Source: Solibacillus sp. FSL H8-0538
Lineage (GTDB): Bacteria; Bacillota; Bacilli; Bacillales_A; Planococcaceae
Direction: 5' to 3'
Length of the DNA: 64,000 nt
Assembly: GCF_038003525.1 (NCBI RefSeq)
Contig: NZ_JBBOPI010000001.1
Coordinates: 1,913,001 to 1,977,000, forward strand
The notes beneath the pieces are model-generated. The model was given only the letters and a program-made list of their open reading frames with translations, did no database searches and was not told where the DNA came from. This document shows positions 21,861-26,463 of the stretch, piece by piece (position 1 is the stretch's first letter; every line of letters begins with the position of its first letter). Both the position numbers and the translations under genes were made by a program.

Positions 21861-21905
21861 AAAAGGCGCTCTCTAAAATAGAACTAGTTAGAGAGTGCCT
21901 CTTTT
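21861..21905. terminator. Bidirectional terminator between the MATE gene and gerC
   Basis: AGGCGCTCTCTAA (21864-21876) and TTAGAGAGTGCCT (21888-21900) pair with one wobble and are followed by CTTTT. The genes converge here. Confidence 0.85.
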
Positions 21906-22962
21906 AATATAAAATACCTGTTTCGACAACGTTCAGCTTTATTTCAGTTGTAATGTTCATCGTTGAAAATTTTTCATGCCAATTTTCCTCATAATACTTA
22001 GTATGGTAGGCGCGTGTAATTTGACCGAGCCCAATCGCATCACACTTTGCATCTTGTAATTTTTTTATAACTGCCTCCATATCCTTAGTTATTTGCTCCG
22101 TTAAAAATTGGTCGATCTTATCTCGTTTTTTCTTGCTCTTCAAATTATCCTGTGGAAATTCAACAATGGCTACATCTATCTTGTTCATTATGTTAATCTG
22201 ATCAGAAATATCTAAATTTCGCTTTGTTTCGACAATTCTAATTGACAAAGGATGGCCTTCGTATATATAAGACAAACGTGCTACTTGGCCAATTGATTCA
22301 TTTAATATATTTAAAAGAATCGACTGTTGCGGATTTAATGTTTCTCCGCTAAATGAGCGCCCTGAAAAAAGTGCGACTCCCTCTCCGACTGGACGCCCTA
22401 GCTCCTCATCCATTTTTAAATACGGCAACACTAAGTCCTTTGCTGTCTCAAATAGGATAGTACTAGCCGTTTGCATCGTATAGGGAACCACAAAAGAAGC
22501 CTCCTCGAAACTTTTGATTAAGCGTTGGTAATATGCACCGGATTCACTCTTCCACTGCTGACTAAGGTCGAAGAATGGCTTCACATCACCCGAAACAACT
22601 ACAAGCTTGGCCGTAATCGGACTACTGGGATCGCGAAAATATATATCGAGATAGTCATAAAAATCACCTGAAGAAGCTGTTTTTTCTGAAATTAACAACG
22701 TCGATAACATAGACAAATCAAGGACTTGTTCCACTTTTAGTTCTGCTTCACTACGAACTTCACGAGGGGATGCTCCTTTGCCTGTGATGACAACTGTGTT
22801 CATTTCTGTTCCTATTGATTCTGGATAGGCATAGTAGCCTGTTATGTCGCCTATTTCCCCTTCAATTCCGGCAAGTGAAACGACTGATAAATTTTTATAT
22901 AAACGTTCATCCCAACATCCTCCGAGTAAAAGAGCAACAACGATTATTTTGATGAATCGAAT
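21904..22962 (-). CDS. gerC: Ger(x)C family spore germination lipoprotein, apparent ATT start
   Basis: The C subunit of a GerA-type nutrient germinant receptor, placed on the outer face of the spore inner membrane. The first ATG is at 22803, but the frame runs 53 codons further upstream without a stop. It encodes a lipoprotein signal, FIKIIVVALLLGGCWDE, with the invariant GGCWDE lipobox of the family. There is no ATG, GTG or TTG between the upstream stop (22981-22983) and this signal. ATT at 22962 lies 6 bases after GAGGGGGAG and gives IRFIKIIVVALLLGGC as N-terminus. The resulting 352 residues fit the family. The gene overlaps gerB by 19 bases. The C-terminal domain ends VVETGILY. Confidence 0.85.
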   Translation of the reverse strand: MRFIKIIVVALLLGGCWDERLYKNLSVVSLAGIEGEIGDITGYYAYPESIGTEMNTVVITGKGASPREVRSEAELKVEQVLDLSMLSTLLISEKTASSGDFYDYLDIYFRDPSSPITAKLVVVSGDVKPFFDLSQQWKSESGAYYQRLIKSFEEASFVVPYTMQTASTILFETAKDLVLPYLKMDEELGRPVGEGVALFSGRSFSGETLNPQQSILLNILNESIGQVARLSYIYEGHPLSIRIVETKRNLDISDQINIMNKIDVAIVEFPQDNLKSKKKRDKIDQFLTEQITKDMEAVIKKLQDAKCDAIGLGQITRAYHTKYYEENWHEKFSTMNITTEIKLNVVETGILY

Positions 22963-23984
22963 TGTGATCTCCCCCTCAGTTTATTGACGCTAATAATAAT
23001 GATAGGCAACACAATTGCAAACACCAAATTTATATACAATAAAGAATGCTTAAATATCTGTTGCATTGTAATATTAACGAAAAAACACGCCGAAATACCC
23101 ATAACGGTGAAAAATACGAGCTGCTGAAACTTCTCATATTTGCGCTTTTGTTGAAAATAAACAAGTCGAATCACAAGTACATGATTCACTATCCCAATAA
23201 TCGTCCATGATACCCAAATATAAATGAAGAAAATATCGAGCCGTTTTACAAAAGTTACTTCCTGTGAATTTAAGATGTATAAAATTGGCTCAGAAATGAT
23301 ATTAATCTCTTCAATTGCAAAATACATAATTGTAAATAATAGCGATACCATATAAAAAGCCGTGAGAAAAGACGCATATATTAACAAAATTCTGCGATTT
23401 ATTGTCTCGCTTTGCATCACATATTTTCGGAGTATTAAATAAACCTCGACTCCACTAAAGGCATTCGTCGAAAATAGAATCCCCTTAATCCATCGATCAA
23501 CTGGCTCTTGCATTAACGGAAACAAATTGGTCACCTCTAAATCCGGAATGGACAAGAATAGAAAAAGAAAAAATATAACAAGCATCGGTATCATAACCAC
23601 ACCAATGTTAACAGCCGTCTCCGCTCTGCTCACGCTTGCATAGTAACAAACAGACAATAACAAAAAAACGAGCACGGCATTTGGTGTATTCGGAAACACC
23701 CACGACGACAGTATATACAAAGTATTGACGACAAACGCATGAAGATAATAAAACCAGTACAAAATGTAAAGAAACCGAGTAACAGGGTTTAATATAAAAT
23801 ATTGATAAGTACGTTCAAAAAACAATAATAGTAGATAAAATACTAAAGCCGTGATAAGAAATTGTAACGTTGAATCACGTTTCCCATTTTCAATGACTAA
23901 GTTTTGAAATGATACATAAACAAAGGCCGTTTGCATAATAAACATTAGCAAAAAAAACTGCACACGTGTAAGTTTAATCGTCAT
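22944..23984 (-). CDS. gerB: GerB family spore germination permease
   Basis: The B subunit of the germinant receptor (346 residues, about 10 hydrophobic spans, APC-superfamily fold). It is thought to bind the nutrient germinant in the spore inner membrane. Characteristic pieces include the N-terminal LTRVQFFLLMFIMQTAFVYV, the PDLEVTNLFPLMQEPVDRWIKGILFS loop and FSGVEVYLILRKYV. It overlaps gerA by 4 bases (ATGA) and gerC by 19 bases, so the three subunits should be made in step. The germinant cannot be inferred from sequence. Confidence 0.93.
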   Translation of the reverse strand: MTIKLTRVQFFLLMFIMQTAFVYVSFQNLVIENGKRDSTLQFLITALVFYLLLLFFERTYQYFILNPVTRFLYILYWFYYLHAFVVNTLYILSSWVFPNTPNAVLVFLLLSVCYYASVSRAETAVNIGVVMIPMLVIFFLFLFLSIPDLEVTNLFPLMQEPVDRWIKGILFSTNAFSGVEVYLILRKYVMQSETINRRILLIYASFLTAFYMVSLLFTIMYFAIEEINIISEPILYILNSQEVTFVKRLDIFFIYIWVSWTIIGIVNHVLVIRLVYFQQKRKYEKFQQLVFFTVMGISACFFVNITMQQIFKHSLLYINLVFAIVLPIIIISVNKLRGRSQFDSSK

Positions 23985-25414
23985 TTCTTCTCACCCTCTT
24001 TGGGAGAAAAGCTTGTCGCTTGCTTTTTCGCCTTATAATACGGCTCACGAAGTATCACTTTAAAAATCTCTTTTGGTTGGAAAGGAATAAATGGCGTAAA
24101 ATATGGCTGTTTGAGTGAACTTAAATTAAATAAATGAATAACCAATAAAAGCGTCCCAATCACAATGCCAAAAAAACCAAAGAGTGACGCCAATACCATA
24201 AACGGAAATCGTAATAGTCTTATTGTAGTATTGAGCTCCATAGAAGGCACAACGAAACTTGAAATTGCTGTAAAAGCTACAACAATAACCATCATATTGG
24301 ATACGAGTCCTGCACTCACAATGGCGTTCCCAATAACTAAACCACCGACAATACCAATCGTCTGCCCTACAGCTTTTGGTAAGCGAATACTCGCCTCTCG
24401 AATGAGCTCAATCGTAATTTCAAGAATCATTGCTTCAATAAGCGGATGATATGGAATTTGATTGACATCAATTTTTATTTTATTGGCCAGCTCAAGTGGC
24501 AAAATTTCAAAGTTAAAGCTGACGACTGCAATATAAAATGCAGGTAGGAAAACTGCTGAGATAAAACTTAAAACCCGCACAATACGATAAAACGAACCGA
24601 CTAAAGTTCGTGAATTATAGTCATCCGGTGATTGGTAAAATGTAAAGAAGTTTATTGGGCCAATAAGTGCAGTAGGGGAAACATCGGTCATGACCGCAAT
24701 TTTCCCCTCAAGAATATTTGCTACAACTCTGTCCGGTCTTTCCGTATTCAGTAGCTGAGGGAATGGTGACCACACATTATCATCCAAATAATCATTAAGC
24801 TGCCCCACGCTATAAAACATATCTAAGTCAATGGAATTTAAACGTTCCTCTATTGTTTGGAGCGCTTCCTTATCAACAACATCCTCCATATAAAGATAAT
24901 ACGCTAAACTATTTGTTTCCTTGCCAATTGTCAATTTTTTGACGATGAGCTTATTGTTTTTTATCCGTTTTCGAATGAGCGATACGTTGGAATCAAAATT
25001 TTCTACAAGCCCTTCGTGTGAACCACGCAGAACAGACTCATTTTCCGGTTCGTCAGGTGTTCGGTGGACAAATTCTGGACTATTCATTCGAATCATTTCG
25101 TTTTGACTTGTTATATAGATTATCGTTTCACCATTGCATACATATTCGATGAACTTGTTTTTTACATATGGCTCAGTCGTTATTGTCAAAGACTCTTCTG
25201 TTTTTTTTGCTTCTGTTTTTTTGGAATGCCTCATTAAATATAAATAGCGCTCCACTTCACTCTTTTTTACAAGCGTAGAATAGAAGCATAATATCGCCTG
25301 TTCATCCTTACTCCAAGCAATTTCCTTTACAACAAAATCTTCTGATTGGAGGAATTGTTGTTGAATTTCTTGCACTTTTTGTTGAATTTCTTGATTTTGA
25401 TCTTGTTGTTTCAT
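23981..25414 (-). CDS. gerA: GerA family spore germination protein
   Basis: The A subunit of a nutrient germinant receptor (477 residues). A soluble N-terminal half carries DFDSNVSLIRKRI-like and TIEERLNSID segments. The membrane half has about 5 spans and the conserved EGKIAVMTDVSPTALIGP, SPDDYNSRTLVGSF, AILEITIELIREASIRLP-type and GIVGGLVIGNA motifs. Translation starts at ATG after GGGGGAGGGCT. A sigma-G-like promoter lies immediately upstream, which fits expression in the forespore late in sporulation. It is the first gene of gerA-gerB-gerC. Confidence 0.95.
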   Translation of the reverse strand: MKQQDQNQEIQQKVQEIQQQFLQSEDFVVKEIAWSKDEQAILCFYSTLVKKSEVERYLYLMRHSKKTEAKKTEESLTITTEPYVKNKFIEYVCNGETIIYITSQNEMIRMNSPEFVHRTPDEPENESVLRGSHEGLVENFDSNVSLIRKRIKNNKLIVKKLTIGKETNSLAYYLYMEDVVDKEALQTIEERLNSIDLDMFYSVGQLNDYLDDNVWSPFPQLLNTERPDRVVANILEGKIAVMTDVSPTALIGPINFFTFYQSPDDYNSRTLVGSFYRIVRVLSFISAVFLPAFYIAVVSFNFEILPLELANKIKIDVNQIPYHPLIEAMILEITIELIREASIRLPKAVGQTIGIVGGLVIGNAIVSAGLVSNMMVIVVAFTAISSFVVPSMELNTTIRLLRFPFMVLASLFGFFGIVIGTLLLVIHLFNLSSLKQPYFTPFIPFQPKEIFKVILREPYYKAKKQATSFSPKEGEKK

Positions 25415-25530: not shown

Positions 25531-26463
25531 TTATTGTTTAATAAATTGTTGTGTCCAGATGTTGCCTTCTTTTACATACCCAACGCCAATGTGAGTGAAG
25601 TTTTCATTTAAAATATTCGCACGGTGACCTTCTGAATTCATCCAAGCTGTTACAACTTCTTCAGCTGTACGTTGACCTTTCGCGATGTTTTCACCGGCTG
25701 CTTGATAGCTAATGCCAAGTGCTTTAAGGCGATCGAATGGGCTGCCGTAAGTTGGACTTGTATGAGAGAAGTAATTTTTATCTTTCATATCTTGTGATTT
25801 TTCACGCGCTGCCGCCATCAATGGTGTATAAGCCTGTAATGGTTGTAATCCAGCTTTCGCACGCTCCGCATTTGTTAACTCTACAACCGCTGCTTCAATT
25901 GCATCAATGTCAGTTGCAGTAGAAGCCGCTTTTTCTGTTGTATTCGTTGTTGAATTTGTAGTATTTTGAGAAGCATTTGAATTCGTATTTGCTTCAGGTG
26001 TTTTTGATTGCTCCGTAGTTGTTTGCGTTACTGGTGCTTTTTCCACCTCTGTATTGGTAGTTGGTTGCTCTGTAACTACTTGCTCTTTTGTTACCTCTTT
26101 TTGAGGAGTAGTTTTTTCTGCTGGAGTGGCAGTCTTTTTTTCTACTTTTATAGTTGTAGTTTTGCCTGGTTCTTTAGTAGACTTTTTATCTACTTTTGTA
26201 ATTGCCTTTTTTTCTAATGCTTTAATATCAAACCCCATTTTTTCTAATTCTTTTAAAATAGGATTCTGCTCTTTTTCCCATGTAATTAATTGTTGTAATT
26301 CATTATTGAATGCTATTGAATTATATTTATATGTCTTAATGGATTTAATTTGTTCCTCGAAGCGGTTACCCGTCTCTCCCTCAGTCGTTGTTGCAGCATT
26401 CGCTATAGGCGCTTGTGTTGCCAAAAGTACTATTGCACAAAATGTGATAAAGCTCTTTTTCAT
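25531..26463 (-). CDS. Secreted CAP-domain (SCP/YkwD-like) protein
   Basis: A 310-residue exported protein. Residues 1-23 form a Sec signal peptide ending ANA. Then comes a Lys/Glu-rich region and a long Thr/Asn/Glu-rich low-complexity linker (about 110-185). The C-terminal CAP domain spans about 190-310, with VELTNAERAKAGLQPL, YFSHTSPTYGSPFDRL, GENIAKGQRTAEEVVTAWMNSEGHRANIL and THIGVGYV. The four-residue His/Glu pocket typical of CAP proteins is present. Bacillus relatives are extracellular or spore-coat associated, but the activity is unknown. The ribosome site AAGGAGG is good and the gene is monocistronic, directly upstream of the germination operon. Confidence 0.9.
   Translation of the reverse strand: MKKSFITFCAIVLLATQAPIANAATTTEGETGNRFEEQIKSIKTYKYNSIAFNNELQQLITWEKEQNPILKELEKMGFDIKALEKKAITKVDKKSTKEPGKTTTIKVEKKTATPAEKTTPQKEVTKEQVVTEQPTTNTEVEKAPVTQTTTEQSKTPEANTNSNASQNTTNSTTNTTEKAASTATDIDAIEAAVVELTNAERAKAGLQPLQAYTPLMAAAREKSQDMKDKNYFSHTSPTYGSPFDRLKALGISYQAAGENIAKGQRTAEEVVTAWMNSEGHRANILNENFTHIGVGYVKEGNIWTQQFIKQ

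Follow-up and report, generated by a model that had tools for sequence, protein, structure and literature searches.

Escherichia coli pcnB starts at AUU and Myxococcus dsg at AUC. To our knowledge, few conserved non-canonical starts outside infC have been described. The papers cited below describe the closest systems. The infC gene starts at ATT in Bacillus subtilis (PMC6097659) and at AUA in Staphylococcus aureus, where ccpN (AUA) and cvfC1 (AUU) also have conserved non-canonical starts with an extended Shine-Dalgarno sequence (SD) (PMC13009471). In the same species, extended SDs accompany AUU and AUA starts, and non-canonical starts gave approximately 10% of the AUG reporter output in poor medium (PMC13009471). 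The GTC start of Streptomyces sigR is conserved across the genus, is repressed by IF3, and thereby fixes how much of each of two proteins an operon with overlapping genes yields (PMC5472188). For pncA (BBE22) of Borrelia burgdorferi, which starts at AUU, databases list a truncated product (PMC13398362). In E. coli, excess IF3 lowers non-canonical initiation and re-initiation, the drop being smaller where there is an SD (PMC2268962). Finally, a review describes the C subunit of germinant receptors as lipidated on a Cys and in contact with both the A and the B subunit (PMC11841064).

The gerC gene described here most likely joins infC, sigR, ccpN, cvfC1 and Borrelia pncA as a gene with a non-canonical start. 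As in infC, an AUU-class start is paired with a strong SD, and within these organisms the two genes apparently share the codon; however, infC responds to its own product through IF3 autoregulation, whereas gerC encodes a spore membrane lipoprotein. Like sigR, gerC has an operon partner with an overlapping stop and start, an extensive SD and, as proposed below, a start that would affect the ratio of operon products. By contrast, sigR encodes a sigma factor, starts at GTC and is a case in which IF3 repression was tested (PMC5472188), while gerC most likely starts at ATT or ATC (hereafter ATY) and would respond to IF3. The starts of ccpN and cvfC1, which are different genes, were demonstrated using Ribo-Ret and reporters (PMC13009471); that of gerC is predicted from sequence, and the ATY start was seen in a single clade within one gene family. 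Borrelia pncA is a single gene for a metabolic enzyme, whereas gerC encodes a receptor subunit in a gerA-gerB-gerC cluster. A further comparison is with gerC of Lysinibacillus, Viridibacillus, Rummeliibacillus and Sporosarcina, which is homologous, has gerB upstream and encodes a lipobox, but starts at ATG or GTG. In the accessible open-access literature on germinant receptors and on AUU, AUC and ATT starts, we found no non-canonical start of a germinant receptor gene.

The gerC locus

The window, a 64,000-nucleotide stretch of the genome of Solibacillus sp. FSL H8-0538, contains the following features.

21904..22962, minus strand: gerC, lipoprotein subunit of a germinant receptor, Ger(x)C family; 352 codons counted from the ATT; TIGR02887, PF25198 and PF05504
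22960..22962, minus strand: predicted ATT initiation codon of gerC; ATT/ATC identity and SD distance both kept in 14/14 clade members
22966..22977, minus strand: extended Shine-Dalgarno GAGGGGGAGATC; core GAGGGGGAG at 22969-22977; predicted duplex with the 16S 3' tail, -16.2 kcal/mol
22915..22932, minus strand: lipobox LLLGG-C; Cys codon TGT at 22917-22915; CWDERLYK identical in 14/14 clade members
22981..22983, minus strand: in-frame stop TAA bounding the gerC frame, 7 codons 5' of ATT
22801..22803, minus strand: first canonical in-frame start, ATG, 38 codons past the lipobox Cys
22944..23984, minus strand: gerB, spore permease subunit; PF03845 above cut-off, TIGR00912 match below its cut-off
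23981..25414, minus strand: gerA subunit gene, first in the gerA-gerB-gerC cluster; PF03323, 513.9 bits; NF052514 match below cut-off

The genes gerA (PF03323), gerB (PF03845) and gerC lie on one strand with overlapping neighbours, a predicted operon. In the window, the last 19 nt of gerB, from the ATT to the gerB TAA, overlap gerC; across the 14 clade members the overlap is 19-28 nt. The upstream neighbour of the cluster (25531-26463, minus strand) encodes what we take, from its motif, to resemble a secreted CAP/SCP-domain protein.

The open frame of gerC extends from 22980 to 21904 (358 codons, minus strand). Its product passes the TIGR02887 model, spore_ger_x_C, with 179.5 bits against a cut-off of 163.25, and its GerAC domains score over their cut-offs (PF25198, 89.6 bits; PF05504, 74.2 bits). 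On the minus strand, the 5' part reads TAA (22983-22981) ACT GAG GGG GAG ATC ACA ATT (22962-22960) CGA TTC ATC AAA, and the lipobox part CTC GGA GGA TGT (22917-22915) TGG GAT GAA. A sequence-only reading of this DNA had proposed that gerC starts at the ATT, and the details on which it drew agree with the DNA. Specifically, the gerC frame contains no ATG, GTG or TTG from the stop at 22983 to the lipobox Cys, the first being the ATG at 22803; 53 codons separate the ATT from that ATG; and the ATT at 22962-22960 is 6 nt from GAGGGGGAG (22977-22969). Read from the ATT, the N-terminus is M-R-F-I-K-I-I-V-V-A-L-L-L-G-G-C (MRFIKIIVVALLLGGC), which, judged by eye, looks like an ordinary lipoprotein signal. 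Two other kinds of start were considered and rejected: an ATC at 22968, which directly adjoins the SD core and has a counterpart in just one of the other 13 clade members (L024), and the later ATC and ATA codons of gerC, which are further from the SD than the ATT.

Start codons of orthologs and paralogs

Relatives were collected by a contig scan, which yielded 20 loci, and by a search of 261 family genomes, 35 of which matched at E<=1e-80. Within these 35 genomes, the predicted start codon of gerC is ATY in 14 and ATG or GTG in 21. The ATY is ATT in 4/14 genomes (the window genome and three from one Ureibacillus/Lysinibacillus genus: Ureibacillus xyleni, Lysinibacillus endophyticus and L. antri) and ATC in 10/14 (nine of the Solibacillus genus and G095, from another genus). 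In all 14, it is located exactly 15 nt past the first base of the SD core, [A/G]AGG[G/A]GG. The 21 canonical genes start at GTG in the Lysinibacillus genus, apart from one with ATG, and at ATG in Viridibacillus and Rummeliibacillus. At E<=1e-40, the gene is present in 9/16 genomes of the Solibacillus genus and in 3/25 of the Ureibacillus genus. Two further Solibacillus-genus genomes, G031 and G072, contain more distant homologs (~30% identity) that start at ATG and were not placed in the tree.

No canonical start offers itself in the ATY genes. In 9/14 genomes, ATG, GTG and TTG are absent altogether before the lipobox Cys. The other five have one just 4-9 codons before it: an ATG 9 codons before in L025, and a GTG or TTG 4-9 codons before in L007, L012, L024 and L026. 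We judge this distance too short for a lipoprotein signal peptide, and none of the 14 orthologs has a canonical codon at least 10 codons before the Cys. The alignment with relatives that the sequence-only reading had called for places ATG at the site in 0/13 of the other clade genomes, while distant relatives have ATG or GTG. That reading had named a point mutation or base-call error as the main alternative; this is excluded because the 13 other genomes share ATT or ATC at the site. A start at the ATT is, in turn, strongly supported by the recurrence of ATT or ATC at the same site and at a fixed distance from the SD in 14/14 clade genomes. The lipobox motif GGCWDE, which had been described as invariant, is so in part: GCWDERLYK is invariant in the 14 clade members, but the first G of GGCWDE varies.

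The paralogs in the same genomes provided a control. Of the 70 PF05504 matches in the 14 ATY genomes, 14 are the orthologs and 55 are paralogs with an intact frame; the remaining one is a broken fragment (G179:C25:13658), which was left out of the paralog count. A canonical codon at least 12 codons before the Cys occurs in 55/55 intact paralogs versus 0/14 orthologs (Fisher p 6e-15, with relatedness ignored). The presence of a canonical codon in all 55 argues against a group-wide relaxing of start codons in these GerC genes. Since 14/14 clade members have the unusual start and 55/55 intact paralogs do not, it represents more than chance.

One paralog in the window genome (L003/L157, G000:C1:1643156-1646551, locus 739) reads AAAAGGAGGG-CTTCAT-CTG AAA AAA AAA ATG, and the spacing from its SD favours the CTG over the ATG that follows four codons later. 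At the position of the CTG, the closest relatives carry ATG or TTG, which makes this a likely singleton.

The ATY rows, 14 in number, cluster together in a tree of 76 GerC proteins, with support values of 88/76 and recovery in 87% of 200 bootstrap trees; canonical relatives adjoin them. The tree was derived from 102 matched loci after removal of 20 same-genome duplicates, three loci with a mis-assigned lipobox (L064, L065 and L093) and the distant homologs L102-L104. The third letter of ATY requires one T/C change on the tree and is never G or A. Most simply, and with moderate support, the ATY state would have arisen once, in the ancestor of the gene clade, and then been kept. The ATC gene of G095 (L024) is Solibacillus-like, with 61% identity to the window copy, and sits inside another genus, in which the gerC copies of other sampled members are at best 34-36% identical; it is a candidate for horizontal transfer. 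A gerC labelled Arthrobacter beigongshangensis (L022, NZ_JADHDX010000014.1) falls among Sporosarcina in the tree and perhaps reflects contamination or a mislabelled assembly.

ATY-start gerC genes were also sought in 398 genomes of the class using a pattern of GGAGG, then ATH, then a lipobox. It matched 48 places in 44 genomes, and 30 loci plus six of the other 18 matches were inspected. Among the 30, every match with an open frame of >300 codons has a canonical start, and the rest are short frames. Five of the six further matches have a canonical codon, which for G423 was confirmed from the DNA; a second place in G493 is without one. The pattern is blind to AGGGGG-type sites such as that of the window, and the search is therefore no proof that the clade is unique.

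Constraint on gerC and on its start codon

Pairwise dN/dS of gerC was 0.09-0.49 in the 34 usable of 91 clade pairs, three cross-group pairs being as high as 0.38-0.49; the other 57 pairs were uninformative (dS of 1.5 or more, or no value computed). The gene is under purifying selection, which, from the codon counts given next, extends to the region 5' of the first ATG. That the gene is a decaying pseudogene, or the ATT an assembly base-call error, is accordingly something to which we assign a negligible probability: its one attraction is the lack of a canonical start, and against it are a feature common to 14 genomes, dN/dS well under 1, and intact frames.

A comparison within eight chosen pairs bears on where the protein begins. 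From the Cys to Cys+36, these pairs differ by 79 synonymous versus 24 non-synonymous codons, and in the rest of gerC by 520 versus 436, both sets of counts ignoring shared ancestry. The excess of synonymous differences indicates that the stretch from the Cys to the first ATG is read as protein. It is thus hard to reconcile with initiation at the ATG at 22803 or another internal codon, which would yield a GerC lacking the lipoprotein signal. Although that ATG is the first canonical codon in frame, and is probably the one that automatic annotation picks, the stretch before it shows tighter constraint than the remainder of GerC (79 vs 24), and CWDERLYK within it is identical in 14/14 clade members. 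Moreover, the position of the first ATG varies from Cys-9 to Cys+38, and C subunits are described as having an N-terminal signal and a diacylglycerylated Cys (PMC11841064). We regard an internal start as extremely unlikely.

The overlap with gerB allows the start codon itself to be examined. In the gerB frame, the A of ATY closes a GTA, ATA, TTA or CAA codon and so occupies a third position. In upstream gerB, these codons account for 30% of Val, 25% of Ile, 36% of Leu and 72% of Gln, respectively. On the tree, this A has undergone no change, whereas between -60 and -18 each of the 15 third positions of gerB has changed 1-6 times. Zero changes were also found at three other gerB third positions: -12 and -9, in the SD, and the one that coincides with base 1 of gerC codon 2. 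The gerC-frame codon just 5' of ATY has 5, 5 and 1 changes, two of its three bases thus being free. As a gerB wobble position, the invariant A points to a function in gerC.

The other two letters of ATY are positions 1 and 2 of a gerB codon, and this opens a second way to account for the persistence of ATY. A Cys-to-Ser/Phe change in GerB could have created ATY as a by-product of the gerB tail, the codon being tolerated because of the strong SD; this would be compatible with the AUU/AUC start itself. The TG of ATG or GTG encodes a Cys in the gerB frame; examples of GTG and ATG species have GerB tails ending in ...KTCIEK or ...SKCDKS, and most ATY species have ...RT[VLI]S or ...TIFDSS instead. 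Nevertheless, the gerB tail is otherwise variable, yet the A of ATY, a gerB wobble position, is invariant. We consider a by-product possible, with the balance tilted against it. The reading of ATY in the gerB frame (TCC/TTC) may help to hold it in place.

The overlap also raises the possibility of a programmed -1 frameshift, in which ribosomes translating gerB would slip on a G-run into gerC to produce a GerB-GerC fusion that needs no start. The geometry would permit this: gerC is in the -1 frame of gerB with overlapping frames in 14/14 clade members, and in 13/14 the gerB codon that follows a G5 run is CGN or AGA. However, L024 has AAGGAGGCG, which lacks the G5 run yet has the strongest predicted SD of the 14. 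In GTG-start Lysinibacillus relatives, the corresponding G-run is the SD of a canonical start, and some of these (e.g. L009, L010 and L014) have gerB in another frame relative to gerC. A fusion would, moreover, need neither an invariant ATY nor a constant SD distance, and we rate a frameshift as very unlikely. Among the Lysinibacillus loci L006-L018, groups differ in the frame of gerB relative to gerC and in the length of the G-run, while the SD and the GTG start are constant.

Initiation context and possible consequences

True initiation at AUU or AUC is the reading of gerC that we consider highly probable. The predicted SD duplex in the 14 ATY genomes ranges from -11.7 to -17.5 kcal/mol (median -12.4) for pairing with the 16S 3' tail; in the window, pairing reaches into GATC, giving -16.2 kcal/mol. 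For comparison, the SDs of canonical gerC genes were evaluated at 65 of 68 loci that were resolved (43 ATG, 21 GTG and 1 TTG), which are canonical by construction since their starts were picked by best SD. The medians are -11.5 (ATG) and -11.1 (GTG), with ranges that overlap those of the ATY genes, and the difference has p 1.6e-4, uncorrected for relatedness. Pairing thus appears somewhat stronger in the ATY genes, in agreement with the extended SDs of AUU and AUA starts in S. aureus (PMC13009471). In the 14 clade members, gerB stops 19-28 nt past the first base of the gerC start codon, which makes translational coupling of gerB and gerC likely.

The infC genes of the family (L105-L125) were examined as well. 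In 21/21 genomes, an ATT occupies the SD-proper position in TGGAGGTGG ATY nnn ATT AGC AAA GAC; the codons around it are well conserved, and the in-frame ATG that comes four codons later lies at a greater distance from the SD. The infC start thus appears to be ATT in these genomes, and AUU initiation should therefore suit these cells. Relaxed IF3 as a cause of ATY was considered and rejected: in an alignment of IF3 from 21 genomes (14 ATY and 7 others), no change that separates the two sets was seen by eye.

The explanation that we favour, and hold to be probable as a whole, is that gerC is functional and is initiated at AUU or AUC with the aid of an extended SD located within the 3' end of gerB, which limits the output of GerC. 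Absent canonical starts, conservation, SD, constraint and grouping in the tree are its observed basis; from biochemical work on other systems we infer a reduced GerC yield, sensitivity to IF3 and coupling to gerB. Ribosomes would start gerC at the ATT at 22962-22960 (ATC in the Solibacillus group), reading it as fMet. The strong extended SD in the end of gerB would set the initiator tRNA on the mismatched codon, and ribosomes finishing gerB 19-28 nt downstream would probably help. The weak start codon would then yield less GerC than GerA and GerB. Whether ATY was kept because low GerC was favoured, rather than because it was tolerated, we judge to be evenly balanced.

Since IF3 discriminates against AUU and AUC, the supply of GerC should be sensitive to IF3. 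Control of gerC by IF3 is plausible in view of the apparent ATT start of infC in the same family and the published non-canonical starts that are IF3-dependent or limit translation. An IF3-linked regulatory role of the gerC start in sporulation is nonetheless a tentative proposal that we consider rather unlikely. Equally doubtful is its fuller form, in which AUU/AUC makes GerC the IF3-sensitive limiting subunit and the forespore IF3-to-ribosome ratio sets the number of receptors per spore.

A non-canonical gerC start has been kept in 14 species whose other intact GerC genes have canonical codons available. In Solibacillus and relatives, gerC is predicted to be annotated too short wherever gene finders refuse ATT or ATC, much as Borrelia pncA is listed in truncated form. 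The codon also offers a single-codon handle on how far the number of receptors and the germination of spores depend on GerC dosage. If the proposed role of IF3 were true, the readiness of spores to germinate would be a threshold tuned by an initiation factor during sporulation.
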